39,866 nt of DNA from Sulfurospirillum tamanense. Its GTDB lineage: Bacteria > Campylobacterota > Campylobacteria > Campylobacterales > Campylobacteraceae. A model generated the notes under the pieces. The model was not told where the DNA came from, made no database searches, and worked only from the letters and a program-made list of their open reading frames with translations. This document shows, piece by piece, positions 2,843 to 18,894 of this stretch (positions within the stretch are counted from its first letter, which is position 1; each line of letters begins with the position of its first letter). Made by a program: the position numbers and the translations under genes. The stretch lies in the NCBI RefSeq assembly GCF_016937535.1, contig NZ_JAFHKK010000023.1, positions 1 to 39,866 on the forward strand. Direction: 5' to 3'.

Positions 2843-3274
2843 ATGTCCAACACCCAAGAAGTTGCGTTAAAATACTTTCAAGAAGGCTACAATTGTGCCG
2901 AATCCGTCGTCCTTGCGACCACAAAAAACCCTGCCGCCACTGCCGTTGCTTCGGCATTTGGGAGTGGACTTTCCTGTACGGAAGGGATGTGCGGGGCACT
3001 TAGCGGAGGCGTGCTTGCCCTCTCTTTGACTAAAGGCAAAGGGGCGCGCCATGAGTCTGCAGAACTTGGCACAGAAGTCAAAGCCCTTGTAGAGGGGTTT
3101 CAAACCACCTTTGGCTCCACAGGCTGTTCAACACTGCTTGGATTTTCCCTCACCGACAAAGACGCGGGAGAAAAGTTCCAAGCCAAAGGTTGTTTTGAAA
3201 CCAAATGCTCTTTGTACGTCAAGTACATAATCGAAGAGCTAGATCACTTACTCAAACCTACACAACCCCTTTAA
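2843..3274 (+). CDS. C_GCAxxG_C_C family redox protein
   Basis: A 143-aa cytoplasmic protein of the C_GCAxxG_C_C family (named for its conserved Cys pattern). Visible are GYNCAES near the N-terminus, CTEGMCGALSGG in the middle, GSTGC, and CFETKCS near the end. The family is thought to bind a metal or Fe-S centre and often lies near radical SAM or redox genes; its biochemical role is not settled. The start ATG has AAAGGA 8 nt upstream. The gene converges on the ABC ATPase gene and overlaps its 3' end by 17 nt. The 988-aa fusion protein in the facing operon carries a similar CGxxGxCGAASG segment in its DUF5714 part, so the two may act in the same pathway; that link is inferred. Confidence 0.88.
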   Translation: MSNTQEVALKYFQEGYNCAESVVLATTKNPAATAVASAFGSGLSCTEGMCGALSGGVLALSLTKGKGARHESAELGTEVKALVEGFQTTFGSTGCSTLLGFSLTDKDAGEKFQAKGCFETKCSLYVKYIIEELDHLLKPTQPL

Positions 3275-4013
3275 GGGTTTCTAAAATAGCCTCGTGCATG
3301 GCACTAATCTCCAAGGCATGATGTCGCGAGGCTTTGGGTAGCGGGGGCGTGAGTGTAGAGAAAATCCGCCCTGGCTGGCTTGCCATCACCACCACCCTAT
3401 CAGAAAGCAACAACGCTTCACGAATCGCATGGGTTACCATCACCACGCCCATGTTTTTTTCCCTAAAAAAGCCCAACATAGCTTCATCCATCGCCTCTCT
3501 ACTGGCCTCATCAAGAGCTGAAAAAGGCTCGTCCATCAAGACCACATGAGATTCCATCGCCACAGCGCGCGCTAGAGCTGCACGTTGTTTCATGCCCCCA
3601 GAAAGCTGCCACGGATACGCCTTAGCAAAGGAGGCGATACCTGCGCGCTCCATGCACGCATAAGCTTTTTGGTGCTTTTGCGAAGCGGAAAAGCTCTTTA
3701 CATGTAAAGGCAACATGACGTTCTCTTCGATGCTTAACCACGGAAAAAGACCCGAATCTTGGGGAATAAAACTGCGCCGATAACTTGGACCATCCACGGG
3801 CATGCCACGGTGCAACACCACGCCGTCGCTTTTTTGCTCAAAACCCGCAAGCAACCGCAACAAGGTGGACTTTCCGCACCCGCTTGGCCCTACAATAGAG
3901 ACAAATTCCCCCACCTCCATGGAAAAATCAATCCGCTGCAAGGCCACCACACAGCGCTGTTCTTGGGGGAGACTGTACGCTTTACTCAACCCTTGAAGTT
4001 CAAATTCCAGCAC
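3258..4013 (-). CDS. ABC transporter ATP-binding protein (SsuB/TauB/NrtD type)
   Basis: A 251-aa ATPase with Walker A GPSGCGKST, a Q-loop IPQDSGLFPW, signature LSGGMKQRAALARA, Walker B VVLMDEP and an H-loop VTHAIREA. This is the nitrate/sulfonate/taurine importer subfamily. The start is GTG, with AAGGA upstream; it overlaps the end of the permease gene by 14 nt, so the two are translationally coupled. It is the last gene of the seven-gene operon that starts at 10857. A copy of the iterated palindrome (3697-3708) lies in the coding sequence and encodes the LHVK of MLPLHVKSF. The substrate cannot be read from the ATPase. Confidence 0.93.
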   Translation of the reverse strand: MLEFELQGLSKAYSLPQEQRCVVALQRIDFSMEVGEFVSIVGPSGCGKSTLLRLLAGFEQKSDGVVLHRGMPVDGPSYRRSFIPQDSGLFPWLSIEENVMLPLHVKSFSASQKHQKAYACMERAGIASFAKAYPWQLSGGMKQRAALARAVAMESHVVLMDEPFSALDEASREAMDEAMLGFFREKNMGVVMVTHAIREALLLSDRVVVMASQPGRIFSTLTPPLPKASRHHALEISAMHEAILETLKGVV

Positions 4014-4737
4014 TGCCCATCCTTACATGTAACAGACGCTCAACATAGCCAAAGAGGTATTTTTCGCTCACTATTCCTACCACGCAAATCAGCCCAATGG
4101 CAATAAACGCCGCTTCAAAATCCAGCGACCACCGCGACTGAATGATGGCAGACCCCAGTCCCACGCTACTACCCACAACCATTTCCGCCGCGATAAGCAC
4201 CCGCCACCCCACCGCAAGCCCCATGCGCATCCCTAGCAACAAAGAAGGGGCAAGAGCGGGTAAAACTACCATTCCCAAGGTGCGCATCCGTGAGAGGTTT
4301 AACATGCGTGCCATTTGCAAATGGTGTTGGGGAAATTGGCGCACGCTTGAAGCTGTATGGACAAATACGGGGCCAAAAGCGGTGATGACAATCATAAACA
4401 CCGTCGCCTTTTCGCCAATCCCAAAAAGCAACATGGCAAAGGGAATCCACGCAAGGCCAGGCATGAGCTGCAGCACCCCACCCACTTGCATCCCTGCTCC
4501 ATATAGCCACGACACCCTCCCGCAAAGCACCCCAAGCCCAAAGCCCAAGACAAGCGCTATGCCATAGCCCACGCCCCAGCGCTTCAAACTCATCCAAAAA
4601 TGCTCCCACACGGGTGATTGGTAGAGCAACTCCCCTTGCAAAAAGTGCCAAAACCGCTCAAACACCGCTGGAGGCAGAGGAAAGGGAATCCCGCGCGTCC
4701 ACTCTACCGTCCAACCCAAAAGGTACCACGCGCCCAA
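4000..4737 (-). CDS. ABC transporter permease (SsuC/TauC type), 5' end possibly frameshifted
   Basis: A binding-protein-dependent importer permease with five to six membrane segments. The coupling-helix region is ARMLNLSRMRTLGMVVLPALAPSLLLGMRMGL. The uninterrupted frame starts only at a TTG (4735-4737) with no ribosome site and a truncated first helix. Upstream, in the +1 frame, is a TTG at 4782-4784 with AGGGGAG four nt before it, reading MRLKALLAPFVGVLFF. One extra T in the T7 tract (4736-4742) would join that segment to ...LGAWYLLGW and rebuild a normal first helix. The longer form would overlap the binding-protein gene by 11 nt. Either a sequence error, a slippery tract or a real mutation is possible. 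Confidence 0.88.
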   Translation of the reverse strand: MGAWYLLGWTVEWTRGIPFPLPPAVFERFWHFLQGELLYQSPVWEHFWMSLKRWGVGYGIALVLGFGLGVLCGRVSWLYGAGMQVGGVLQLMPGLAWIPFAMLLFGIGEKATVFMIVITAFGPVFVHTASSVRQFPQHHLQMARMLNLSRMRTLGMVVLPALAPSLLLGMRMGLAVGWRVLIAAEMVVGSSVGLGSAIIQSRWSLDFEAAFIAIGLICVVGIVSEKYLFGYVERLLHVRMGSAGI

Positions 4738-4773: not shown

Positions 4774-5673
4774 TTAAGGCGCAACGCACTCCCCTAAGGG
4801 CCGCACACGCCCCAAGATGCCCTGAGCGACTAAAAATTCCCCCAAGGCTTCAAGGCTTTTTAGGTCCGCTTCTTCCCAGCCAACGCGGTAAAAATGGTAG
4901 GCCATCGCTTGCGTGGTCGCTTCTAGCGAAAGTCCCGTAGCAGCAGAAAGTATCTGGGCCGCTTCGTCAGGAAACGCGGCTATAAAGGCCGCACTTTGTG
5001 CCAAGGCCGCCTTAAGTGCAGGTAAAACCTTGGCGTGTTCTTTTAAACTACGCTCTTTGGCCATGAGCAAAAGCGGATAGGTATTGCCCGTGCCGCCAAG
5101 GCTCATCAGCCGTTTTCCCAAGCCTCTTTCCACTAATACCGAAGGGGTGGGTTCACTGGCCACCACCGCGTCTGCCTCACCGCTTGCTAGCGCTGTAGCC
5201 ATCAACGAAGGAGCCAAATCCATCATCTCTTTGTCTAATGAAAGGCCGAGGCTTTGGGTTTTTAGCAACAAGCCTCCATGGGTTGAGGTGCCAAATTTCA
5301 CCGCAACCCTCTTCCCTTGCAACTCCTCTAGGCCTGTAGCCAAAGAAGTTTTTGGCACCACCACCCAATGGCGCTCTTCACCTCCACCCAAAGGCATGAG
5401 CGCTTGTACCCTTGGGCAGTATTTTCCTAGGGCAATGAGCGCGGCGGTGTCTCCCATGGTGGCAAAATCCGCATCCCCAAACAAGAGCGCTTCACTGGTT
5501 GCAGGGCCGCTAGCAAAGCGTTTGGGGTTTATATGTAACCCTTGGGCTTCAAAAAACCCCTTGGCCACCGCCACAAGCATTACCCCATCCCCGATGCGGT
5601 CTTGATAGGCGATGGTAATGGGTTTTGCACATCCTAGCACCACACAAAAAAACATCCCCAACACACTCCGCAT
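4774..5673 (-). CDS. ABC transporter substrate-binding lipoprotein (NMT1/THI5-like)
   Basis: A 299-aa periplasmic binding protein of the NMT1/SsuA/TauA superfamily, with a signal peptide and lipobox VVLGC near residue 15, so it is probably a lipid-anchored receptor. Typical features are AKGFFEAQGL near the N-terminus, a GDADFATMGDTAAL segment and GKRVAVKFGTSTHGG. The ATG has AAAGGA upstream, inside the 12-nt gap to the fusion-protein gene. A degenerate copy of the iterated palindrome encodes LHINPK after AQG. It works with the permease and ATPase downstream. Ligand candidates in this superfamily include sulfonates, nitrate and pyrimidine precursors. The setting beside an ArsM-like fusion makes an organic thiol or metalloid compound worth considering, but that is conjecture. 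Confidence 0.88.
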   Translation of the reverse strand: MRSVLGMFFCVVLGCAKPITIAYQDRIGDGVMLVAVAKGFFEAQGLHINPKRFASGPATSEALLFGDADFATMGDTAALIALGKYCPRVQALMPLGGGEERHWVVVPKTSLATGLEELQGKRVAVKFGTSTHGGLLLKTQSLGLSLDKEMMDLAPSLMATALASGEADAVVASEPTPSVLVERGLGKRLMSLGGTGNTYPLLLMAKERSLKEHAKVLPALKAALAQSAAFIAAFPDEAAQILSAATGLSLEATTQAMAYHFYRVGWEEADLKSLEALGEFLVAQGILGRVRPLGECVAP

Positions 5674-5685
5674 GGTTTTCCTTTG

Positions 5686-8652
5686 CTAAAAAATAGGACA
5701 CTGCTTGCCATAGCAGTACTGGTTGAACTTTTTTTGATCGCATTTACTTAGTGCCGCGGCTTCAAGCTTTACATGTAAGAACGTTTCAGAGAGCTTAGCG
5801 GCGATGGTAAGGGCCGTCCACACTTCGCGGTTACAGCAGCGCGCCGCTTCATAAGTGGCGATTTCTCCTAGCACGGCGTGGGTGGCTTGTTGGGCCAGTT
5901 GTCTGCTTTGGGCTTTGACAGGCGAAGCACCCAAGCACACCGCAAACCCGATGCCCACTCCGCTTGCCGCGCCACACACTCCCAAAAATCCGCACGCGCC
6001 ACCCATCACGCTCGCACCGCGCGTTAGGGCTACATGTAAGGCATCTTGGGCCACGCTACCGCCACTGTTTTTAAAGGCGGTGACGATGATAGCAGGTACC
6101 ATGGCGTGGTGTTCGGGGCCATGTTTTGGCACGCTTGGATGCTTGCGGATGGTCTCATACAAAGCTAACATGTCTGTTGCGTTTGAATGGGCGCAAATAT
6201 GCTCGATGACTTCCAGTGCCTCTTTGGCATGGCAGGTGTCGCACACAAAGTGATTTTCCTTACATGTAACGCTGGTTTGCACGGTTTTACCGCAATAATA
6301 ACAGCGGTTTTCTTGGGAAACTTGGCTGTACACCAACCCCTCACCACACACCATGCAGTTGGCCGTTTTTTTGGTGAGGCTAAAACTCGGAACGGCTTTC
6401 GCGGGAGCCAAGCTGAACCCAGCGGGCTTGGGTTTTTCAGGGGGCACGGCGCACGCACAGCCTTGGCCTTCTTGGTTGCTTACAGCGCCCGTGCTATCAA
6501 AAATAAACAGTTCGCTCTCCAACGCTTTAGCGTAGTGGGCGGGAATGTTAGCTTTAACGCCTTTTAAAAGCACGGTGCCCTCTTCCAACACGAGGCGCGC
6601 TAGGGGGCCTTGGTACATCACCGTTTGCAAGGAACTGGTTTGAGGTTTGTGGGCTTCAAAGGTGAGCGAATAAAAACTGTGGCCTTGGACTTGGCGGTAA
6701 AAAAAGCGCTTAAGTAAGCGCACGTTTTCAAAACCGCTCTCACGCAACAAGCCTAGCAAGTGGGTGATGGTGAGCGCCCCGCCGATGCACTCGCCACTGA
6801 GCTTACTGTCGTTGCGAATGCTCGCACTTGGCTCTTCGTCGCACACCACATCCGAGACCACCAACCTGCCGCCATTTTTAAGCACCCGAAAAATCTCCCC
6901 AAAGAGTTTGCGCTTGTGAGAAGAGAGGTTGAGCACACAGTTTGAGGTGACCACGTCGTAGCTTTGGTCAGGTTCTGGCAAAGACTCTAGGTAGCCTTTC
7001 ACAAAAGAGAGGTTGTCATAGCCTAACTGTTGCGCCACCTCCTTTGCCCCTTTTGAGGCGATGGCAAGCATCGAGTCAAGCATGTCTACCCCGCGCACTC
7101 TGCCGCTCTCGCCGACTAATTTTGCGGCGATAAAACACTCTACCCCGCGCCCCGAACCTAGGTCCAACATGGCTTCATTTGGCACTAACGCAGCGTCTAA
7201 TACGGGGCTTCCACACCCGTAGCCTCGAAACCGCAAGGATTGGGGGATGTGGGAAAGGTACTGCTCTTCGTAGCACACGGGGTTAAGGATGTCTTCTTTG
7301 TCTTCCAAGGCCGCGTCGTGGTAAAAGTCCTTCACAAGGCGCAAAGACGCACTCTCACCCGTGGCCACAAGGCAATTGGAATGCACACACGCTACGCCCT
7401 CATTAGCTCCGCAACTGTAGAGAATCTCACCCATTTTCAGTTGCAACCCGACGCCTTCCACGGGGCTTTCTTTGGCGGCTTGGACGATGAGACTTAGGGC
7501 CAGTTTTTCCATCACGCGCTCATAGGGGTCATCACCCATAAAGGTGTTTGCGTGGGCAAAACTGTGGTCAAAGTCGCCTCCGCCAAGCAAAAAGCGCAAG
7601 GGAGTGGTGAGGTTAACAACAGAACTTTCACGGATGGCCTTAGCCACAGGACTTTGCAAGGCTTCGGCGATGCTTCGCCCTTCCATAAGGAGTGCCTTTT
7701 CGCCGACCATGGCGGCACTGGGGTAAAAACTGCCATCATACGCCAACGCCGTGCGCCCCGAACTTGACCCATCATGTACCGTGCCCGCGGGGGCGAAGAT
7801 TTGGGTTTTTAAAACTTCAAGGTTGTCGATGATGACCCCCTCTTTTTCTGCTTGGGCGCAAGCGCGCAAGAGGGCGTCAAAGAGGACTTTTTCGTCCATG
7901 AGTGGTTCTTGTTGGGCGCGCCCTCTGGAAAAGGGCCACATGAAATGCACATGGTTTGCCCCAAGACTCTTGGCAAGGCGCACCACTTCGGGGGTTTCGT
8001 GCACGTTTAGTGGGTGCAAACACAAGGAAAGGGAGTAGAGATAGCCCGCATTTTTAAGCCACACTAGATTGCGCTCTAGTTTTGTAAAACTTCCTTTACC
8101 GCGAATGGCTTCGTGGGCTTTAGGGAGTCCATCAAGACTGACTTGAAAATGCACGCGTGCTTTAGGGTAGTCCTTATATGTAAGGGTTTTTTCGAGCAAC
8201 AAGCCGTTGGTGAGTACCGCCACTTCGGTCTCTTTGAACGCCAAAATCGCTTCTACTAACGCGTTAAACTCAGGATGCACCGTGGGTTCGCCACCGCTTA
8301 GCACAAAAAGGCGTGCCCCAAGAGCGTACGCTTCTTCTACCAAAGGCAACAGCTTGGCTAAGCTCAGCGTGTCTTTTTCGCTAGGACTAGAGCTAAACAA
8401 ACAGTGGGTACATGTAAGGTTACAGCGGTTGGTGAGGTGAATCCAAAACTCTTGCAAGGGGACTTTTGCCTGTTTTTTGGGCGCGTACACCGCGGGGTTT
8501 GGGGTGCCGATGCGCGTGCGCAAGGTGCGAAGGGTGTCGCTCTCTTCCTCTAAACACAGGGCTTCATCGGCCTTGGGACTTGGCACAAACCAGTGGGCAC
8601 TTTGGGTGTGCACATACACAGGGGTATTTTCGTAAGTAAACCGTTTCCACAT
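5686..8652 (-). CDS. Radical SAM / ArsM-like methyltransferase / DUF5714 three-module fusion protein
   Basis: A 988-aa cytoplasmic enzyme. Module 1 (about 65-350) is a radical SAM domain with CNLTCTHC (C77, C81, C84) for the 4Fe-4S cluster and LSGGEPTVHP. The following SPASM-like stretch has serines (GSSSGR, FYPSAAM) where an auxiliary-cluster protein would usually have cysteines. A Cys-rich linker (413-427) precedes module 2 (about 435-670), a SAM methyltransferase very like ArsM: LDLGSGRG, GVDMLDSML, and the contexts SNCVLNLS and GECIGGAL, which match arsenic-binding cysteines of ArsM, plus GYGCGSP. Module 3 (about 760-988) has zinc-finger-like pairs (CMVCG, CYYCG, CDTC) and a DUF5714 region with CGFLGVCGAASG and RCC. 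It is preceded within 10 nt by the VTT gene and followed by the ABC importer. The methyl acceptor is unknown. Confidence 0.88.
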   Translation of the reverse strand: MWKRFTYENTPVYVHTQSAHWFVPSPKADEALCLEEESDTLRTLRTRIGTPNPAVYAPKKQAKVPLQEFWIHLTNRCNLTCTHCLFSSSPSEKDTLSLAKLLPLVEEAYALGARLFVLSGGEPTVHPEFNALVEAILAFKETEVAVLTNGLLLEKTLTYKDYPKARVHFQVSLDGLPKAHEAIRGKGSFTKLERNLVWLKNAGYLYSLSLCLHPLNVHETPEVVRLAKSLGANHVHFMWPFSRGRAQQEPLMDEKVLFDALLRACAQAEKEGVIIDNLEVLKTQIFAPAGTVHDGSSSGRTALAYDGSFYPSAAMVGEKALLMEGRSIAEALQSPVAKAIRESSVVNLTTPLRFLLGGGDFDHSFAHANTFMGDDPYERVMEKLALSLIVQAAKESPVEGVGLQLKMGEILYSCGANEGVACVHSNCLVATGESASLRLVKDFYHDAALEDKEDILNPVCYEEQYLSHIPQSLRFRGYGCGSPVLDAALVPNEAMLDLGSGRGVECFIAAKLVGESGRVRGVDMLDSMLAIASKGAKEVAQQLGYDNLSFVKGYLESLPEPDQSYDVVTSNCVLNLSSHKRKLFGEIFRVLKNGGRLVVSDVVCDEEPSASIRNDSKLSGECIGGALTITHLLGLLRESGFENVRLLKRFFYRQVQGHSFYSLTFEAHKPQTSSLQTVMYQGPLARLVLEEGTVLLKGVKANIPAHYAKALESELFIFDSTGAVSNQEGQGCACAVPPEKPKPAGFSLAPAKAVPSFSLTKKTANCMVCGEGLVYSQVSQENRCYYCGKTVQTSVTCKENHFVCDTCHAKEALEVIEHICAHSNATDMLALYETIRKHPSVPKHGPEHHAMVPAIIVTAFKNSGGSVAQDALHVALTRGASVMGGACGFLGVCGAASGVGIGFAVCLGASPVKAQSRQLAQQATHAVLGEIATYEAARCCNREVWTALTIAAKLSETFLHVKLEAAALSKCDQKKFNQYCYGKQCPIF

Positions 8653-8661
8653 ACTACACGC

Positions 8662-9348
8662 TCACGTTGAGGATTTTGCCCTAAGGGCTTTGATTTTTTT
8701 GACCGCTACGGGCAAGAGGGCAAGCAGGCCAAAAAGCACGAGTACCAAGGCCATCTCTTTGGTAAAAATATCGCCCAAGTGGTCGATGCGCGAAAGCTGA
8801 CTTCCCGCGTACGTGTAGGCAAATCCGCCGGGGATGATGCCGATAAACGTGGTGATAAAAAAGGTTTTAATATCGATGCGCGTCAGGCCGCAAAAGAGGT
8901 TGACCAAGAAAAACGGAAACACAGGGATGAGCCGCAAGGCAAAAAGGTAACTGTACCCATCGCGCTCTAGTTCGGTGTTGAACTTGGCCAACTCGTTGGC
9001 GTATTTTGCTTGCAAACTTTCCCCTAGCACAAAACGCGCCACGTAAAAACTCGCCACCGCCCCAAGGGTCGCGCCAAGGACGGCAAAAATAAGCCCAAAA
9101 AACGCCCCAAACATAAAACCCGCCGCGAGGGAAAGCACCGTGGCGATGGGAAACATGAGTGCCACCGAAAGGGCATACAGCGCCACAAGCCCAAGGGCGC
9201 TTAAGAAGTAGTGCTCTTGCACAAACAACAGCAAGGTTTCGCGCTTGGCTTTGAGCATTTCAAAGGAAACATACGCATCAAGTCCAAGGATGTTTACAAG
9301 CACAACAAGCCCTACCACGAGGGCAAGAAGGAGGAGTTTTTTCTTCAC
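8662..9348 (-). CDS. TVP38/TMEM64 (VTT-domain, DedA-like) membrane protein
   Basis: A 228-aa inner-membrane protein with an N-terminal helix and a VTT core: MFPIATVLSLAAGFMFG, then GATLGAVASFYVARFVLG, and RLIPVFPFFLVNLFCGLTRI with IIPGGFAYTYAGSQL, ending in a helix and basic tail. The start is GTG (9346-9348), one nt after the stop of the upstream gene, with AAAGGGA supplied by that gene's tail. VTT proteins move lipids or other substrates across membranes and are found in several arsenic and mercury gene clusters. Its place directly before the ArsM-like fusion gene fits a transport role, but the substrate is not evident. Confidence 0.88.
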   Translation of the reverse strand: MKKKLLLLALVVGLVVLVNILGLDAYVSFEMLKAKRETLLLFVQEHYFLSALGLVALYALSVALMFPIATVLSLAAGFMFGAFFGLIFAVLGATLGAVASFYVARFVLGESLQAKYANELAKFNTELERDGYSYLFALRLIPVFPFFLVNLFCGLTRIDIKTFFITTFIGIIPGGFAYTYAGSQLSRIDHLGDIFTKEMALVLVLFGLLALLPVAVKKIKALRAKSST

Positions 9349-9349
9349 A

Positions 9350-10417
9350 TTATCCCTTTAACGATGCAATCATGCGTTTGGTTTTGTAGCGGTTTATCCA
9401 AGAAGTAAGTGTGCCGTGTTTTGGCTGCGTCAAGGTTTTGGCGACCGTCTCATCAAAGAGCAAGTCTAGCAAATGCACCCCATTTTTGCCGCCGCGTGAC
9501 ATGGAGCTACAGCACTCTTGGCAGTAACTCACGATGGTTTCGCACTCGGTCTGGTGGGCGCGGGAGACCATCTGTTCACGGGCAAGTTTGGGGTTGGTGA
9601 GGGCTAGCATCCCGCCGCTTCCACAGCACTGGGTTTTGTCGCGGTTGAACTTGAACTCCTCAAAGGGGAGTTTGATAGTACGTAAAATCTGGCGTACCGC
9701 TTCGTGCAACGGCTTTTCGAGGCGCGTCGGACAGGGGTCGTGCAAGGCCACAGGCTTGGCCTCGCTAAAGTCCCGCTGAGGCACGCCAATCTGCGCTAAA
9801 AGCTTGTACAACGAGAGGGTTTTGACCTGTGGCGAGAGGGTTTTGAGGCTCATGTAACAGTTCTCACACGCGGTCACCACGGTCGTCACGCCAAGGCGGT
9901 CGATGTCGCGCTCTAGCAAACTGTAAAACCCTTCAAATCGGTCGATGTCGCCCAACACCCGCGTGGGTTTGCCACAGCACTGCATGAGCACGCTCATCCC
10001 TGGACACGCTTCTTGCAAATGCGCGATGATGGACTTCACAAGAGCGGGAGAATAGGAACTCAGGGCGCATCCGGGCATGAACGCCATGTGGGAAAAGTCG
10101 GTGGCACGGAATGTTTTGATGGTCGTAAGCGCTTTTGAAAAACTCAAGACTTGGTGAAACAACACCGCACGGTAGCCAAAATTTTTAAGCTCCGTAGGGG
10201 CAAGTTCCACTTTGCGCTTTACAAAATGCGCTTCAATGCTGATGTCTTTTGGGCACACATGGGCGCAATACCCACAGGCCGCGCAGGAAAAGGCCACAGA
10301 AGCGGGAGATTCTTTGATGGTTTCAAGAAGGGTTTTGGGAGAGTCCGTAAACTCCCCCATCATCAAACACCCCTTCATGCACGCTTTACAGTCGATACAC
10401 TCGGTTGAAGGGTTCAT
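9350..10417 (-). CDS. (Fe-S)-binding CCG-domain protein, HdrD/GlpC-like
   Basis: A 355-aa iron-sulfur oxidoreductase subunit. The N-terminus has two 4Fe-4S ferredoxin motifs (CIDCKACMKGC and CAACGYCAHVCP). Two CCG domains follow: one with MPGCAL ... QCCGKP, the other with HDPCPTR ... QCCGSGG and YCQECC. CCG domains bind a non-cubane cluster in heterodisulfide reductase HdrB and quinone-linked clusters in GlpC/LldE-type proteins. No membrane helix is seen, so it is probably cytosolic or peripheral. The ATG overlaps the rhodanese stop codon by one base (TAATG), so the two are coupled. It could supply or remove electrons for disulfide or persulfide chemistry in this operon. Confidence 0.88.
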   Translation of the reverse strand: MNPSTECIDCKACMKGCLMMGEFTDSPKTLLETIKESPASVAFSCAACGYCAHVCPKDISIEAHFVKRKVELAPTELKNFGYRAVLFHQVLSFSKALTTIKTFRATDFSHMAFMPGCALSSYSPALVKSIIAHLQEACPGMSVLMQCCGKPTRVLGDIDRFEGFYSLLERDIDRLGVTTVVTACENCYMSLKTLSPQVKTLSLYKLLAQIGVPQRDFSEAKPVALHDPCPTRLEKPLHEAVRQILRTIKLPFEEFKFNRDKTQCCGSGGMLALTNPKLAREQMVSRAHQTECETIVSYCQECCSSMSRGGKNGVHLLDLLFDETVAKTLTQPKHGTLTSWINRYKTKRMIASLKG

Positions 10418-10857
10418 TATTGTGCGAGTACGTCGCTGATTTTAGCACGTGGCCATTTTTCTTGACCCCCTTTGAGGGTAAACAGTTGGTCTTTGCTGAT
10501 GCCATTTTCAAGGTAAAAATCATAGGCGCGATCCGCTCCGCCACCGCCACGCGGGCACACGATGACCACTTTTTGGCCAGGCTTGATAGAAGGAAGCACT
10601 GCGGCAAGGGCTGCTTTTTCCGCGTCTGTTTTGACGGGGTACGCATACGTGTCTACAGCACCTTTGAGGTGTTCTTTGTCAAAGCCAGGTTTTTCTTGGA
10701 TGTCTACAATGACCACAGACTCAGGCGCCGTACGAATCAACGCTGCTGTTTCTTCTGCTGTGATGTAGTTGTATTTACCACCAAAAAACCCAAACAAAGT
10801 GCTGTTTAGCACCACCAACAAACCTAAAGCTACCGCTACCGTGCGAAGCATTTTCAT
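10417..10857 (-). CDS. Exported rhodanese-domain protein (first gene of the operon)
   Basis: A 146-aa protein with an N-terminal signal or anchor (MKMLRTVAVALGLLVVLNS...) and a single rhodanese domain. The active-site loop is CPRGGGGA, with the expected cysteine. The ATG has AGGAGT 7 nt upstream. It is close in sequence to the next rhodanese gene (11061-11501): both share the VVIVDIQ/VALVDIQ, EHLKGA, VIVCPxGGG and KINDIL/KISDVL blocks. Rhodanese proteins carry sulfane sulfur on the Cys; a periplasmic position suggests handling of sulfide, polysulfide or another thiophile outside the cytoplasm. The glycine-rich active loop is unusual compared with the common CxxGxR form. Confidence 0.9.
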   Translation of the reverse strand: MKMLRTVAVALGLLVVLNSTLFGFFGGKYNYITAEETAALIRTAPESVVIVDIQEKPGFDKEHLKGAVDTYAYPVKTDAEKAALAAVLPSIKPGQKVVIVCPRGGGGADRAYDFYLENGISKDQLFTLKGGQEKWPRAKISDVLAQ

Positions 10858-11060: not shown

Positions 11061-11501
11061 TTATTTGTAAGTGTCATCTTGCACTAAAATATCGTTTATT
11101 TTGTCTCTTGGCCATCCGTACTGCCCATCGGTCAAAATGAACACGCGCGCCTTTGGTATGCCATTTTTGACCAACACATCTACCGCACGCTCTGCGCCGC
11201 CGCCTTTTGGACACACGATGACTACCTTGTCTTCAGGCTGAATCTGCCCCATGATGGCTACCAAGCGCCCTGCTTCTTCGGCGGTATTTACCGGAAATGC
11301 GTAAGTAGGAATGGCACCTTTGAGGTGCTCTTCGTTAAAATCCTCTTCCACTTGAATGTCCACAAGTGCCACGGCACCGCCTTCACGCACCAGTTGCGCC
11401 ACTTCGGGGGCGTCGATGTAATTGTACGCCGCTTTTTTGCCGCCACACCCTACTAACACAAGACCAAGCAACACTGTTGCCATCACCAAACGAAACTGCA
11501 T
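11061..11501 (-). CDS. Rhodanese-domain lipoprotein
   Basis: Starts at ATG 11499-11501 with AGGAGT four nt upstream, giving 146 aa; the frame is open further upstream, but that part has no signal or ribosome site. The N-terminus MQFRLVMATVLLGLVLVGCGGKK has a lipobox LVGC, so it is probably lipid-anchored in the envelope. The rhodanese domain has active-site loop CPKGGGAE. It is a paralogue of the 10417-10857 protein, and promoter, leader hairpin and coding sequence all correspond, which points to a tandem duplication. It lies divergently from hcp across a regulatory region of about 400 bp (11502-11906). Confidence 0.9.
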   Translation of the reverse strand: MQFRLVMATVLLGLVLVGCGGKKAAYNYIDAPEVAQLVREGGAVALVDIQVEEDFNEEHLKGAIPTYAFPVNTAEEAGRLVAIMGQIQPEDKVVIVCPKGGGAERAVDVLVKNGIPKARVFILTDGQYGWPRDKINDILVQDDTYK

Positions 11502-11580
11502 AAGTACTCCTAAAAATGGGTTACATGTAAAGAAAAAAGGGGGTGACCACAAAAGCAGAAAGAGGTTGCATAAGATGGTC

Positions 11581-13259: not shown

Positions 13260-13289
13260 GAAGCCTTGAGGGGCTTTCTCTATTTTTTT
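13260..13289 (+). terminator. Rho-independent terminator of hcp
   Basis: AAGCC (13261-13265), loop TTGAGG, GGCTT (13272-13276), then a T-rich tail ending in T7 (13283-13289). The T-run overlaps the stop codon of the convergent HipA gene. Confidence 0.65.
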
Positions 13290-14868
13290 AAGCGACCAAC
13301 CAACCAAACTCTTTTAATTTCTCTGCGCGTTCAAAAAACTTCTTTTCCAAAATATCTGAAAATTCCATCTCCTCTTTTAAGGCTCTTTTATCTTTAGAAT
13401 AAGAGCTTATGGGCTTGCGCGTAAAAAAAGGCATTGAGCCTAGCGTTTTGAGGCGTTCTATGTAGTGCGGCATTTTATCGACGTATATCAAAGCCGTTTC
13501 TCTAGCAAGTCTTAAAAAATCTGAAAAAGAGACATCTAACTTTTGACAAATAACTTTAAAATCATTGGGTCTGATGTTTTGTTGTTTGCCATTGATCGTT
13601 AAGTGTGATTCATGACCATAACATGAATCATAAAGAGCTGTTGTTGCAACATCGTAAAGTGGCGACATAAACGAGCGATTTTTTGTGTGCATGATGCTTA
13701 AATTTTTGGTGTGCATATCTTCATGGACGATTAAAAGTGAATAGAAAAGATAGTGTAAAAAAATCAACCGCTCTTTTTTATCTAAAAGCTCTTTGGCAAC
13801 CCTTTGCGCCATTTTTTCGGTTGAAGTATCGTATTTTGTTTCGCTATTGAGTCCCATCAAAGAAGAAACATTGGTTTTGGCAAAAACACTGTTTTGGTAC
13901 TTGTCAAATCGCTTGATGATGTAATGCCAATCTTCCCCATCTTTGATGATAGCAGACCATGGCACATCAAAGCCCAATTCGTTTTTAGCAAAACTCATAT
14001 GGAGGTGTTCGTTCACCGACAAATAGGGAATATATTTTTGTGCTTGTGGGTCAGTATACTCTTTGTTGTATGGCTTGATAAAATAGTATGTTGGCTCACT
14101 TTTTTGTGGTTCGCGCAAGACCCCATGAGCCTCATCCATAATAACATGCATTTTATGTTGTTGCCCCGATAAGCCAAATTGAACAGAAGGTTGCGTTGCT
14201 TTGGCTATATCTTTGATAAACAATTTTTCCTTATTGATTTTAATATCCAGCGCTAGCACATTGGGAAAGTCATGCTTGCCCAAAATCTCTTTTTTGTGCG
14301 TATGGTAAAAAATACCGACATCACTATTGGGCGTTAAAACACTCTTCTCTTTTGAAAAAGACAAATCTCCCACATTTTGTTCAAGTGCCAACAATAATGC
14401 AATCACCGAAGATGTTTTTTCTTGGTATTCCAATGCTTGCCTGTCTATTCCTTCAGGCAACAACTCTTCAAATACGGGAAATAACTCTGTCGATTCAATG
14501 AGTGCAAAAGGAGTGTCTAATGTTGGAATGATTTCGATGGGTTCAGAAAAAAGATAATTTATATCGTAGGAAAATATAAACTTTTCCAAAGATGCTGAAA
14601 ACCCAACGACGCCAGCATATCTTTTGTTCTTATACACATAGGCAAAAAAATCCATGATTTCTTCAGGGGAGCGAAGTCGATAGGTCGTACTTGAAGCACT
14701 GCCATAAGAGACAACTCTTCTTAAAGTGATTAACTCTTTGATGTGCCTTTGCAAAGTCCTTGGCTCAATTTTGTATTTTAAATTGCTCATTATTTCACTT
14801 AAGGATAGATTGGTTTTCTTGTCAGCAAATAGTTTTAAAATATCGATATATTCTCTTTTCAGCTTCAT
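13288..14868 (-). CDS. HipA-like kinase with fused N-terminal winged-helix DNA-binding domain
   Basis: A 526-aa protein. Residues 1-66 look like a winged helix-turn-helix (LSLSEIMSNL, EPRTLQRHIKEL, SYGSASSTTYRL wing). The rest matches HipA Ser/Thr kinases: AGVVGFSA, LLPEGIDRQAL, SGQQHKM (234-240), the ATP-site lysine in YFIKP (about 265), NEHLHMSFAKNELGFDVP, IKRFD, the catalytic HEDMHTKNLS (D384) and metal-binding SPLYDV (D406). Classical HipA needs a separate HipB antitoxin and repressor; here no hipB is adjacent and the DNA-binding part is fused. The ATG has AAGGA 6 nt upstream. Codon and base use is much more AT-rich than hcp, which suggests transfer. It may be a one-gene toxin/regulator or a defence kinase. 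Confidence 0.82.
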   Translation of the reverse strand: MKLKREYIDILKLFADKKTNLSLSEIMSNLKYKIEPRTLQRHIKELITLRRVVSYGSASSTTYRLRSPEEIMDFFAYVYKNKRYAGVVGFSASLEKFIFSYDINYLFSEPIEIIPTLDTPFALIESTELFPVFEELLPEGIDRQALEYQEKTSSVIALLLALEQNVGDLSFSKEKSVLTPNSDVGIFYHTHKKEILGKHDFPNVLALDIKINKEKLFIKDIAKATQPSVQFGLSGQQHKMHVIMDEAHGVLREPQKSEPTYYFIKPYNKEYTDPQAQKYIPYLSVNEHLHMSFAKNELGFDVPWSAIIKDGEDWHYIIKRFDKYQNSVFAKTNVSSLMGLNSETKYDTSTEKMAQRVAKELLDKKERLIFLHYLFYSLLIVHEDMHTKNLSIMHTKNRSFMSPLYDVATTALYDSCYGHESHLTINGKQQNIRPNDFKVICQKLDVSFSDFLRLARETALIYVDKMPHYIERLKTLGSMPFFTRKPISSYSKDKRALKEEMEFSDILEKKFFERAEKLKEFGWLVA

Positions 14869-15144: not shown

Positions 15145-18100
15145 CTAACAGTTATCCATAAACTCCCTTTTTTTGGACCACTCGACTCGGCTTTTAATCG
15201 AAGCGCACTGTTTTTTGAGTATCTGAAAATGGTCTAATAAATCAATGTCATCTTTAAAGATCTCACCCAATAGTTCTAAATCTTCCAGTCTTTTGGTGAA
15301 ATACACAACGCTACTCCCCGACCATCCGTGGTTTGATGGCTCTAGTTTTAATCGCTTAAAGTCTTCAATATTTTTATTCACACAAATAAAGACCTTTAAA
15401 AGCCTTTTCTTTATCTTTCCGTCCATTTTGCAAACAACCATACGGAATAAAAAATCAATTTCATCTATGGTGTGCTCTTTGACATATTTCTCTAAAAACT
15501 CAATTTGTTTTTCTTTTGGCATTAGCGTATCGTTAAGCCTATCATTGCCTCCTTTGAAAAAAAGTTCTAGAGCCGACTCAGCAAAAGATGGAAAAACTTC
15601 TCTTTTTTTCTCAGTGGAATAAAATAATGAAAGTATGGATGTCACTATCGGAAAAATATCTTCTCTGGCCCATAAAAAATTAAAGTCCCGATATTGCGTC
15701 TTTCTTTTTTTAAGAGAAAACAAAAGGTGTTCTCCTAAAAAATTAGGTGCATGGTTTAGTAGTAAATTTAGTATTTTCCCATTGTGGTCAAAATGATCAC
15801 ACCGTTCACTTCCTAGATCGTATGCCCATTTCGTTAGATTCAAATCTTCCTTGATAAAGCATTTTATTTCGTCTTCTGAAAGCAAATCTAGTCGAAAAAT
15901 AGAATTACAAGAGCTTAGACAGTCTTCATTTTTTGACTCTCTTGCTTTTATAATCCTAAAAATTTCAACCAGAATTATCATCTCTTTTTGAATAAAATTT
16001 TCAATCCGAGACTTGTGGATACAAAGACAAGAAAGGTTTGCGGTTTGAAAAAAGGTTAGCAATTTTTCTTTTTCATTTCCATCAATTTCCCAAGATTCTA
16101 AAAAGGAAAAATAAGCCATCCGCAGCTGTTCGGCCGTTTTTGGTGACTGCTCTTCAATTAGTGACCATGTGGCATCTTTTCCAAAGCGCTTATAATAAAC
16201 TCTTACGGTATTGAAACAATACAGCCCAAAACCGTCTGCATGACTCAAATAAAAACAAACAACCGAATCAAGGATGGCATCAGAAAAATCATCCAACAAT
16301 GAAAAAAAGGTACAAAAATTTCTCTCAATTTCAAGACGAATACTTCCCCATTGAAGTGCTTCACCTATAAGCAAAATAAGTTGTTTAAAATCTTCTAATT
16401 CGAAGCCCTCAATGTACTCTCTTATATCTTCAGCTATCAACGCTTCAATCTCTTCATATTCTATATCTGAATGAGATTCCATAACATCGCGATGCCCCCT
16501 CGAAAAGAGTTGGTACGCTCTAACCGCTTCGTGAAAAAAATATATTGATAATTCAGTAGTTTCAACAGGGAGTCTTTCGTAATTGCAACATTCTATAAAA
16601 GCATTCACAAGATAACAGTGTCTATTGTTTCCAGGGTTTAATTTAGCATAAAAAAATGGTGGTAAAATCTTAATATCAAATCGCACAGTCCCGCGCCAAG
16701 GCGAACAGTAACTCCCTAATAACCCTAACACTTCCTGTTCTTTATTTGCAAGTTGTTTAAAAATATTTTCCCATATTTTTTTCCTAAAACCCTCATGTTC
16801 TTCTCCAAGAAAATGCTCAAGCCATGCTTGTGTTAATGAAAAAAATAGTGCATCTAGTTCGGGGTATATTTTCATTTTTTCAACTAACTTATCCAAAAAA
16901 AGTGCACATCTTTCTTGTGCTTGTATGACACTATCTTTGTCATGATATTCGGTTAATATTTCAATGATTTCGCTATTTTTACTTGGCCGCTTAATACAAT
17001 ATTCCAGCATCAAAGCTTGTGTCATGGAGCAAGAATCCGTTATTTTTAAAAGCTTTCCAAAAAAATAGAGATAAAGGCTTTCACTAAAACGACTTTCTTC
17101 TTCCAAATTATTGATTTTCTCTTTAAGATATTGAAGCGTTTCGAGAGGTTTTAAAAAACAAAAGAGCTCCAGCAGAGATTCTGTGCGTCTTTCGTTTACA
17201 CCAATAGACTCACTGTAAATTTCATTAATAGCCCCAATCAAAGCCCCCTCAACAGCTTCGCTCGAAAAATCTTCCAAAATTGGATAAAACGTATCCCTAA
17301 TGCGTTCTTGGTTTTTTTCTAGAAATGGCTCCAAGAAAGCTTTTACATGTAAAAGCTTTTTATTAAATACCATTTCATAAAAAAGATAAGTAGCGAGTAT
17401 TTGGTCGGAAACTTTAACTATCTCATCTTCATACATATCTGCAAGCTCAAGGCTGTGAAGTTTTTGCGCCGTACGCCAAAAGGATTCTACATCAACACCA
17501 AAAATAGACTGCACTTCCTGTATTTGCTCTAGATTATTTTTATCAACAGCACCATAAAAAGCAATGATTGCCGCAGCCTTTAAAAGTATTTCATCTTCTT
17601 CAATCTCAATATCTTCATCAACGGAGGCAAAAAATCTTTGGTAAATAGTGGAAATATTTTCCAAACCGACCAGCCCCTTATCTTGCTCAAGTAGTCGGAG
17701 CATCATTATCATAAAGCGAGGATTGCCTTTTGATACAGCCACAATTTTATCAATATGTCGCCAATCCCTCAGGCCATATTTCTCTAAAAAATACCTCATG
17801 TGTTTATGTTCAAATGGCTCTAAAGTTACAATATCCTCTGCAAGCCATTCGTAAGCTTCTAACAACTTTTTAATTTTTCCCATTGCATACCCGCGAACCG
17901 TGAGCACTAATTTAATATCACCATTTTTGATTTTCTCTGAGAAAAATTCTAAAAAATATTCTAATCCATAAGAAATACGATTCGCATCATCAATCAACAC
18001 TAAAAACTTTTCTTCAGAAGAAAAATAAGTGCGAATATCATCCATAATATCCACGCTTCCACGCTGAAGAATGCAATAAAGTTTGCGTTTTTCATTTGAC

Positions 18101-18780
18101 GCATATACTCTGCAACACTCTAGGGCTAATTTTGTTTTTCCAACCCCTGGAATTCCAGCCAGTGTTGTGATGGAATTTTTTTCAATAGATGCAAGGGTTG
18201 CTTTTTGCTCATTTTCACGAAAATACAGTTCTCCCTCTAAAGGAATTGCATAGCGAGTATTGGAGTAATGCTTCAGAAAATCATCAATTTCTAAAATTTG
18301 CCCCGTATCTGCCTCTACATGTAAAAATTCTTGGGCCAAATCAGGGTGGTGATTTAAAATTTCATTAGCAATAGCAGAAAGTGTCAGCACCGTGCAACTA
18401 ATATTTTTTTCTTGGCACTTTTTGCTTAATGTATTTATTTCTTTTGGTCCCAATTTGGCATTGCAAGCAAGGATAATTTCTTGAATATTGCTTATAGCAA
18501 TGCCTGTCTTTGAAGCATCAAAACATTTTTCCAAATCACCTAAAAACTTAGCCTTTACGCCACTCTTTTGAGTTGTATATTCGACAAATATATAATTGCC
18601 GTTGGAAAGAGTTATTAAGGTGTCTGGAGTTCCTGCGGTTGGCTTATCTTCACCGGACTTAGTACCTATAGAATGAATCAGATAGCCGTATTTCTTGCTT
18701 AAGTATCTATCTATGAGTTTATGAAAAACTGAATCATTTATGTTGGAAAGTTCTTTTTCTATTGCATTAATTTTAGACAT
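15145..18780 (-). CDS. Nuclease-like / STAND NTPase, Avs- or NLR-like defence protein
   Basis: A protein of about 1211 aa, starting at ATG 18778-18780 (MSKINAIEKELSNIND..., with AAGGTG upstream); the frame is open 30 codons further without a good start site. Residues 1-150 resemble a PD-(D/E)XK nuclease fold: GTPDTLITL (D53) and FVEYTTQK (E67). A P-loop STAND ATPase follows: Walker A GIPGVGKT (209-216), Walker B FLVLIDDAN, and LTVRGYAMGK. The C-terminal ~750 residues are helical with weak repeats, as in sensor regions. This order (effector, STAND, sensor repeats) is that of Avs/bNLR antiphage proteins, which oligomerise on sensing a phage protein. The gene is strongly AT-rich, and a 24-bp version of the iterated palindrome lies inside it. 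Antiphage function is inferred. Confidence 0.78.
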   Translation of the reverse strand: MSKINAIEKELSNINDSVFHKLIDRYLSKKYGYLIHSIGTKSGEDKPTAGTPDTLITLSNGNYIFVEYTTQKSGVKAKFLGDLEKCFDASKTGIAISNIQEIILACNAKLGPKEINTLSKKCQEKNISCTVLTLSAIANEILNHHPDLAQEFLHVEADTGQILEIDDFLKHYSNTRYAIPLEGELYFRENEQKATLASIEKNSITTLAGIPGVGKTKLALECCRVYASNEKRKLYCILQRGSVDIMDDIRTYFSSEEKFLVLIDDANRISYGLEYFLEFFSEKIKNGDIKLVLTVRGYAMGKIKKLLEAYEWLAEDIVTLEPFEHKHMRYFLEKYGLRDWRHIDKIVAVSKGNPRFMIMMLRLLEQDKGLVGLENISTIYQRFFASVDEDIEIEEDEILLKAAAIIAFYGAVDKNNLEQIQEVQSIFGVDVESFWRTAQKLHSLELADMYEDEIVKVSDQILATYLFYEMVFNKKLLHVKAFLEPFLEKNQERIRDTFYPILEDFSSEAVEGALIGAINEIYSESIGVNERRTESLLELFCFLKPLETLQYLKEKINNLEEESRFSESLYLYFFGKLLKITDSCSMTQALMLEYCIKRPSKNSEIIEILTEYHDKDSVIQAQERCALFLDKLVEKMKIYPELDALFFSLTQAWLEHFLGEEHEGFRKKIWENIFKQLANKEQEVLGLLGSYCSPWRGTVRFDIKILPPFFYAKLNPGNNRHCYLVNAFIECCNYERLPVETTELSIYFFHEAVRAYQLFSRGHRDVMESHSDIEYEEIEALIAEDIREYIEGFELEDFKQLILLIGEALQWGSIRLEIERNFCTFFSLLDDFSDAILDSVVCFYLSHADGFGLYCFNTVRVYYKRFGKDATWSLIEEQSPKTAEQLRMAYFSFLESWEIDGNEKEKLLTFFQTANLSCLCIHKSRIENFIQKEMIILVEIFRIIKARESKNEDCLSSCNSIFRLDLLSEDEIKCFIKEDLNLTKWAYDLGSERCDHFDHNGKILNLLLNHAPNFLGEHLLFSLKKRKTQYRDFNFLWAREDIFPIVTSILSLFYSTEKKREVFPSFAESALELFFKGGNDRLNDTLMPKEKQIEFLEKYVKEHTIDEIDFLFRMVVCKMDGKIKKRLLKVFICVNKNIEDFKRLKLEPSNHGWSGSSVVYFTKRLEDLELLGEIFKDDIDLLDHFQILKKQCASIKSRVEWSKKREFMDNC
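17336..17359. repeat. 24-bp perfect palindrome inside the STAND gene
   Basis: The core TTTACATGTAAA is extended symmetrically by AAAGCT on the left and AGCTTT on the right. It is the longest copy in the window and is translated as KKLLHVKAF. Confidence 0.9.
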
Positions 18781-18894
18781 AATATAACGCACCTTGTCTT
18801 CATAAAGATTTATTAAGATTTTACCATTATTTGCCAATAGCATTATTTCTAAAATTGTCTTCATTTTCAAAACAGTCGAAGGTTTTAATTCTCT

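Follow-up and report, generated by a model that had tools for sequence, protein, structure and literature searches.

The fusion gene and its family

The window analysed here comprises the 39,866 nucleotides of contig NZ_JAFHKK010000023.1 of Sulfurospirillum tamanense (assembly GCF_016937535.1), and the gene of interest, on its reverse strand (Table 1), had been proposed in a first-pass annotation to join a radical S-adenosylmethionine (SAM) domain, an ArsM-like methyltransferase and DUF5714 on one chain. That architecture is borne out by an intact open reading frame of 988 codons, in which Pfam identifies Radical_SAM (residues 72–226, 5.7e-21), Methyltransf_31 (491–633, 1.9e-29) and DUF5714 (PF18978; 816–987, 4.6e-55), the last at 186.2 bits against a gathering score of 26.2. 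None of the 25 NCBIfam models shown reaches its own cut-off on the protein. The AlphaFold2 model of the whole chain, built from 15 sequences, has a predicted local distance difference test (pLDDT) score of 71.

The fusion represents a family conserved across Sulfurospirillum and many Desulfobacterota. Full-length relatives are found in Sulfurospirillum (about 61–69% identity), in one near-identical Campylobacterales genome (95%) and in the Desulfobacterota (for example Desulfovibrionales, Desulfosoma and Pelobacter; 46–50%). Of 297 genomes sampled from the Desulfobacterota phylum, 24 carry the fusion either whole or as a clearly recognisable part. A chance or assembly fusion is excluded because full-length relatives, at 46–95% identity, occur across so many genomes. 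The radical SAM and methyltransferase parts were never found apart in the full-length set that was read. Nor are the cysteines lost across orthologues: C77, C81, C84, C414, C427, C480, C506, C572 and C622, the ArsM cysteines among them, are invariant in all 32 sequences, while C766, C769, C784, C787, C797, C804 and C807 of the zinc-ribbon-like segment, and C887, C893, C939, C940, C971, C980 and C985 of DUF5714, are invariant in 31 of 31.

Table 1. Coordinates of the fusion gene, its parts and its neighbours in the window
Feature	Position	Strand	Basis
Fusion gene: PqqD/RRE-like N-terminus, radical SAM/SPASM-like, ArsM-type methyltransferase, zinc ribbon/DUF5714	5686..8652	-	ATG start, 988 aa, no internal stop
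PqqD/RRE-like region, residues 1-50	8503..8652	-	predicted fold; alignment to L107
Radical SAM core, residues 72-226	7975..8439	-	PF04055, 5.7e-21
C77-x3-C81-x2-C84, predicted [4Fe-4S]/SAM motif	8401..8424	-	invariant in 32/32 sequences
SPASM-like region, residues 284-396, cluster cysteines replaced (HDGSSSG, YPS, LLGGGDFDHS, GDDPY)	7465..7803	-	alignment
C414 and C427, linker between radical SAM part and methyltransferase	7372..7413	-	invariant in 32/32; also present in L107
ArsM-type methyltransferase with C-terminal ArsM-like region, residues 458-735	6448..7281	-	NF008823 451-653; NF040538 to 733; fold match to 4fr0
C480, aligned to CmArsM As(III) cysteine C72	7213..7215	-	PDB sequence alignment; 32/32
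C572, aligned to CmArsM As(III) cysteine C174	6937..6939	-	PDB sequence alignment; 32/32
C622, aligned to CmArsM As(III) cysteine C224	6787..6789	-	PDB sequence alignment; 32/32
Double zinc-ribbon-like segment (C766-C807) and DUF5714	5689..6375	-	PF18978, 4.6e-55; cysteines 31/31
Exported rhodanese-like protein, first gene of operon	10417..10857	-	domain search; rhodanese also in ArsM-ArsS operon L120
4Fe-4S dicluster/CCG protein, upstream of fusion	9350..10417	-	kept beside fusion in Sulfurospirillum, L086, L101
VTT-domain membrane protein, upstream of fusion	8662..9348	-	PF09335, 1.3e-27
Lipoprotein, ABC substrate-binding protein, SsuA/NMT1-like	4774..5673	-	same place in L006, L010, L013, L014, L023
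ABC permease	4000..4737	-	domain search
ABC ATPase	3258..4013	-	domain search
Second rhodanese-like lipoprotein	11061..11552	-	domain search

The methyltransferase part and the cysteine-rich tail

The contexts GYGCGSP, SNCVLNLS and GECIGGAL had been read as those of arsenite methyltransferases, correctly so, as C480, C572 and C622 align with the corresponding motifs of CmArsM. In a sequence search of the PDB, ArsM structures came top (2e-37), GCGS, SNCV and GECxGGAL being aligned between them and the query, and the AlphaFold2 model matches CmArsM (4fr0) with a Z-score of 28.1 and a deviation of 2.1 Å over 214 residues at 42% identity. The methyltransferase part thus resembles ArsM proteins (CmArsM, CrArsM, AS3MT) in its fold, in its three As(III) cysteines and in retaining a C-terminal ArsM-like region, but differs from them in its position behind a radical SAM part and before DUF5714, in forming a clade of its own, in the additional invariant cysteines C414, C427 and C506, and in scoring below the NCBIfam cut-off for arsenite methyltransferase (NF008823; 197.9 bits over residues 451–653, cut-off 263). 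The model for the arsinothricin ArsM, NF040538, gives 167 bits against a cut-off of 500, in a match that extends to residue 733.

ArsS is the radical SAM enzyme that adenosylates arsenic in oxo-arsenosugar biosynthesis (PMC12159101), and the relation of the fusion to ArsM was examined with the ArsM proteins of ArsS-bearing genomes included. The phylogeny, which had been suggested as a check that might refute the first reading, groups the fusion methyltransferase with ArsM: the fusion parts form one group (100/98) inside the ArsM set and stand-alone ArsM proteins, that of the window genome included, form another (100/100), with most ArsM proteins of ArsS-bearing genomes nearby. The tree is unrooted, and in it the fusion group has a shorter path to the ArsM of ArsS genomes than to stand-alone ArsM, which hints that the fusion methyltransferase is the nearer to those ArsM proteins that partner ArsS. 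Where the Desulfobacterota sample gives strong matches to unfused proteins (about 40–44% identity from residue 438 onwards), the genomes concerned (G269, G478, G457, G362) have ArsS.

The window genome also has a stand-alone ArsM (L060:6302-7069, on contig C2), which scores 332 bits, above the cut-off of 263. This bears on the suggestion that the fusion combines two independent activities, arsenite methylation for resistance and an unrelated radical reaction. The parts of the chain can indeed uncouple, DUF5714 being a separate neighbouring gene in L099 and L101, and therefore a detachable third module; but a genome already equipped with ArsM, the failure of the radical SAM and methyltransferase parts ever to separate in the full-length set read, and the existence of analogous fusions of ArsS with ArsM, in both orders, make such independence very unlikely.

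The tail was described at first as a zinc finger followed by a C_GCAxxG-like region. The former stands, as the zinc-ribbon-like segment from C766 to C807; the latter is a resemblance of motif only, for the homology of DUF5714 to C_GCAxxG_C_C is unsupported (hhalign probability 4% over 22 columns, with shallow profiles) and Pfam C_GCAxxG is not among the matches listed for the fusion set. Modelled alone (pLDDT 83), the DUF5714 end finds no significant PDB match with Foldseek (best E 1.0), which is by itself no proof of a new fold, and no paper on DUF5714 was found in the literature searched. Among described proteins, one close counterpart of this end is MbdU (NF045648), a metal-binding double selenoprotein with a similar zinc ribbon and DUF5714 region, which matches residues 758–988 with about half of the model covered, at 139 bits and so far under the cut-off of 600; the fusion tail differs from it in being all cysteine, with no selenocysteine. 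C939-C940 is the only Cys-Cys pair in the DUF5714 end, and the 'CU' selenocysteine motif given for MbdU (PMC13188914) hints that it may be an active pair. One DUF5714 relative, L147, has stop codons close by, and selenocysteine was considered for it but rejected: it has cysteine at the aligned sites, and its aligned part is free of stops.

Origin of the radical SAM part

The radical SAM part had been said to carry CxxxCxxC with serines at SPASM-like cysteine positions, and both observations hold. The first motif is C77/C81/C84. The SPASM-like region is recognisable in alignments (HDGSSSG, DGxxYPS, LLGGGDxDHS, GxDPY), yet none of the SPASM auxiliary-cluster cysteines is kept in any of 31 fusions, where serine, threonine, aspartate or other residues stand instead. 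The comparison is clearest with a sister protein, L107 (828 aa), a PqqD-radical SAM-SPASM-ArsM protein without DUF5714, which keeps these cysteines (CNCC, YPC, ECNNC, CGGGC, DPYC); residues S296-S298, S312 and D360 of the window fusion face cysteines of L107. The N-terminus of L107, in which Pfam matches PqqD, aligns with residues 1–50 of the fusion, although PqqD is not among the Pfam families listed for the fusion set.

The AlphaFold2 model of residues 1–400 resembles radical SAM-SPASM enzymes that bear a RiPP recognition element (RRE; RiPP, ribosomally synthesised and post-translationally modified peptide), namely TigE (1–401), CteB (1–396) and SkfB (61–437), with Z-scores of about 21. In a tree of the radical SAM core the fusions form one group (98/98) that is joined with SPASM proteins (92/94) and lies apart from ArsS (100/98); two distant radical SAM rows from the window genome had long branches, and their placement was not used. 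The ArsS model TIGR04167 gives the fusions only about 50–58 bits over roughly positions 4–153 of 303 (54.9 bits over 6–153 for the window fusion) against a cut-off of 300, and DUF3641, which L119 and L120 as fusions of ArsS possess, is absent from the fusion Pfam matches. With a sub-cut-off score, no DUF3641 and separate, supported tree groups, the radical SAM part is rejected as ArsS or its close kin. Because the fusions group with SPASM proteins and separately from ArsS, this part is, judged by sequence, an independent recruit from the RRE-radical SAM-SPASM proteins that has lost its auxiliary clusters.

Given this ancestry, the radical SAM part might still be a RiPP maturase, with the methyltransferase modifying the same peptide or shielding the enzyme from arsenic. 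In architecture and fold, residues 1–400 are like the maturases SkfB, CteB, TigE and PqqE, the first three being the nearest structural matches, and the PqqD match in L107 agrees with this. The fusion differs from these maturases in its replaced cluster cysteines, missing from every member, and in the attached ArsM; no precursor peptide was found, gaps and overlaps of at most 36 bases in the window operon leave no space for a precursor gene, and the partner genes encode sugar enzymes. A role in peptide maturation is accordingly improbable.

Stand-alone PqqD-radical SAM-SPASM proteins with the full set of cluster cysteines also occur, in genomes without ArsS (L135:1698-3248, L136:2011-3567 and L137-L140). 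These genes, of the same group as L107 and among the SPASM proteins that the fusions join in the tree, adjoin genes for TIGR04283 and/or TIGR04282, and in several cases a small AhpD-like gene; they are possibly a third kind of arsenosugar-type radical SAM enzyme.

Genomic partners and a proposed route to arsenosugar-like products

The window operon runs from 10857 down to 3258 in the order rhodanese, dicluster Fe-S protein, VTT protein, fusion, SsuA-like lipoprotein, permease and ATPase, with every overlap or gap 36 bases or less. For a small thiol or thiocarboxylate carrier as substrate, the second possibility raised by the first-pass annotation, there is no evidence, and this tightly packed operon contains no carrier or precursor gene. 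Sulfurospirillum loci keep the arrangement rhodanese-(VTT)-dicluster-VTT-fusion, with the transporter present or absent, and have, divergent from the fusion locus, genes for an MtnK-like kinase and a fused TIGR04282-TIGR04283 protein, both halves of which score above the cut-off for 'arsenosugar biosynthesis glycosyltransferase'. In the window genome this pair, overlapping by 4 bases, lies on another contig (C32; 205 and 153 bits for TIGR04283 and TIGR04282, both above cut-off), and in the near-identical relative the pair and the fusion share one contig. The window genome also has a nucleosidase match above cut-off, and no ArsS.

Elsewhere in the window, a gene for a C_GCAxxG_C_C protein (2843-3274, forward strand), kept in L006, L010 and L011, and the ABC ATPase gene overlap at their 3' ends. 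By eye, two adjacent reverse-strand reading frames, one HipA-like (13288-14868) and one of 1241 aa with a P-loop-like GIPGVGKT (15145-18870), form a possible toxin or defence island, and an 844-aa reading frame (26292-28826, forward strand) starts like an NMT1/THI5-type substrate-binding protein and is perhaps a sensor fusion.

Among the 297 Desulfobacterota genomes, 24 have the fusion, 86 have ArsS and none has both. TIGR04283 is present in 23 of the 24 fusion genomes, in 79 of the 86 with ArsS and in 30 of the 187 with neither; in the one fusion genome that lacks it, G443, a TIGR04282-like gene lies close to the end of its contig, and 7 of the 30 carry the stand-alone SPASM type. Fisher tests give p = 4e-15 for the association of fusion and TIGR04283 among ArsS-free genomes and p = 2e-11 for the exclusion of fusion and ArsS among TIGR04283 carriers, values that ignore phylogeny and are hence optimistic. 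In the 17 genomes in which the fusion was first found, TIGR04283 is above its cut-off of 182 bits in 13 and reaches 176–177 bits in two more.

The operons of the two enzymes are also alike. TIGR04282/TIGR04283 genes adjoin the fusion in the Desulfobacterota loci L087, L092, L093 and L094, and L101 reads dicluster-VTT-TIGR04282-TIGR04283-[radical SAM-methyltransferase]-[DUF5714]; the ArsS loci L118 and L120 read VTT-ArsS-TIGR04283-TIGR04282 and TIGR04283-rhodanese-[ArsM-ArsS]-VTT-TIGR04282, and VTT genes flank ArsS in L117, L118, L044 and L120. The fusion shares with ArsS the CxxxCxxC motif and the partners TIGR04282, TIGR04283, VTT and rhodanese, and would likewise work with an ArsM, whereas its radical SAM part, of another lineage, has a SPASM-like C-terminal half. 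In the Desulfobacterota sample, true ArsS with DUF3641 is itself fused to ArsM in L119 (3796-5802, ArsS-ArsM) and L120 (5201-7267, ArsM-ArsS), and these opposite orders mean that the joining occurred more than once. Many Desulfobacterota ArsS genes contain one in-frame TGA (for example G350:C259 and G387:C268), consistent with a selenoprotein ArsS, and a small protein that by eye is AhpD-like lies directly upstream of ArsS in L115 (5818-6150) and L116 (1447-1779), as beside the SPASM type.

The proposal that the protein would methylate and then modify a metalloid is well supported by this context, because of the arsenosugar-type glycosyltransferases in nearly all fusion genomes, the complete exclusion with ArsS in the Desulfobacterota sample and the shared operon partners. 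We therefore favour, with a probability of roughly 0.6, the reading that the fusion is a one-chain, non-orthologous replacement for the ArsM and ArsS pair that starts arsenosugar-like biosynthesis. Several points weigh against it. As seen above, the radical SAM part resembles ArsS neither in score nor in possessing DUF3641, and the co-occurrence statistics neglect phylogeny; the radical SAM part also has its ancestry among peptide-modifying enzymes and retains an RRE-like N-terminus; the MtnK-like gene is seen near the fusion in Campylobacterota only; the 'arsenosugar' label of TIGR04282 and TIGR04283 is an NCBI annotation; and one bin outside the sample of 297, G204, contains both fusion and ArsS, though it is probably mixed, since the fusion occurs in it on two contigs that differ from each other (L010, L018).

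Known relatives of the MtnK-like kinase phosphorylate 5-methylthioribose at C1. In the route that we infer, with arsenic as the substrate, the ArsM part would first bind arsenite on C480/C572/C622 and methylate it with SAM; the radical SAM part, with a single [4Fe-4S] cluster on C77/C81/C84, would then cleave a second SAM and couple the carbon radical so formed, which is most probably 5'-deoxyadenosyl, to the trivalent methylarsenical held nearby. A nucleosidase would take off adenine, after which the MtnK-like kinase would phosphorylate C1 of the 5-deoxyribose that bears the arsenic. Activation of this sugar and its transfer to an acceptor would fall to the fused TIGR04282 (CofC-like) and TIGR04283 (GT2-like) domains, and the product would be an arsenosugar or arsenolipid. 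DUF5714 and the zinc ribbon may bind As(III) or pass it on, or may donate electrons from thiols, and it might be speculated that the SsuA-like transporter imports a sulfonate acceptor or an arsenical.

A different group could in principle be transferred. ArsL of arsinothricin biosynthesis, which transfers a 3-amino-3-carboxypropyl group, is likewise a radical SAM enzyme with only the CX3CX2C cysteines and is paired with ArsM to form a C–As bond, as proposed for the fusion (PMC8552651), and the sub-cut-off match to NF040538 points the same way. ArsL is, however, unfused, and its cluster arsQML has no sugar enzymes (PMC8552651); TIGR04282/TIGR04283 and the MtnK-like kinase suit a ribose-bearing product rather than an amino acid, the partners equal those of ArsS operons, and the gene neighbourhoods that were read revealed no ArsQ-type permease, so that ArsL-like action seems unlikely. 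The same chemistry might instead be directed at selenium, tellurium, antimony or mercury, as the partial likeness of the tail to the selenoprotein MbdU and a weak similarity of the ABC transporter subunits to the SAO organometal transporter could suggest. We judge this quite unlikely, given the invariant As(III) cysteines, the mutual exclusion with ArsS, an enzyme known to act on arsenic (PMC12159101), and SAO scores that are far below cut-off.

Replacement of ArsM and ArsS by the fusion would give anaerobes their own route to complex organoarsenicals, one overlooked by current annotation because the enzyme at its centre differs from ArsS and goes unnamed by any NCBIfam model. A single natural chain would then combine methyl transfer with radical transfer, both of them SAM chemistries, and DUF5714 would gain its first testable role. 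At even odds, we would go further and see here a convergent solution to C–As bond formation: a second, independently evolved radical SAM enzyme, made of a cluster-stripped SPASM protein, ArsM and an arsenic-handling DUF5714, that yields arsenic-ribose products in anaerobic Campylobacterota and Desulfobacterota.

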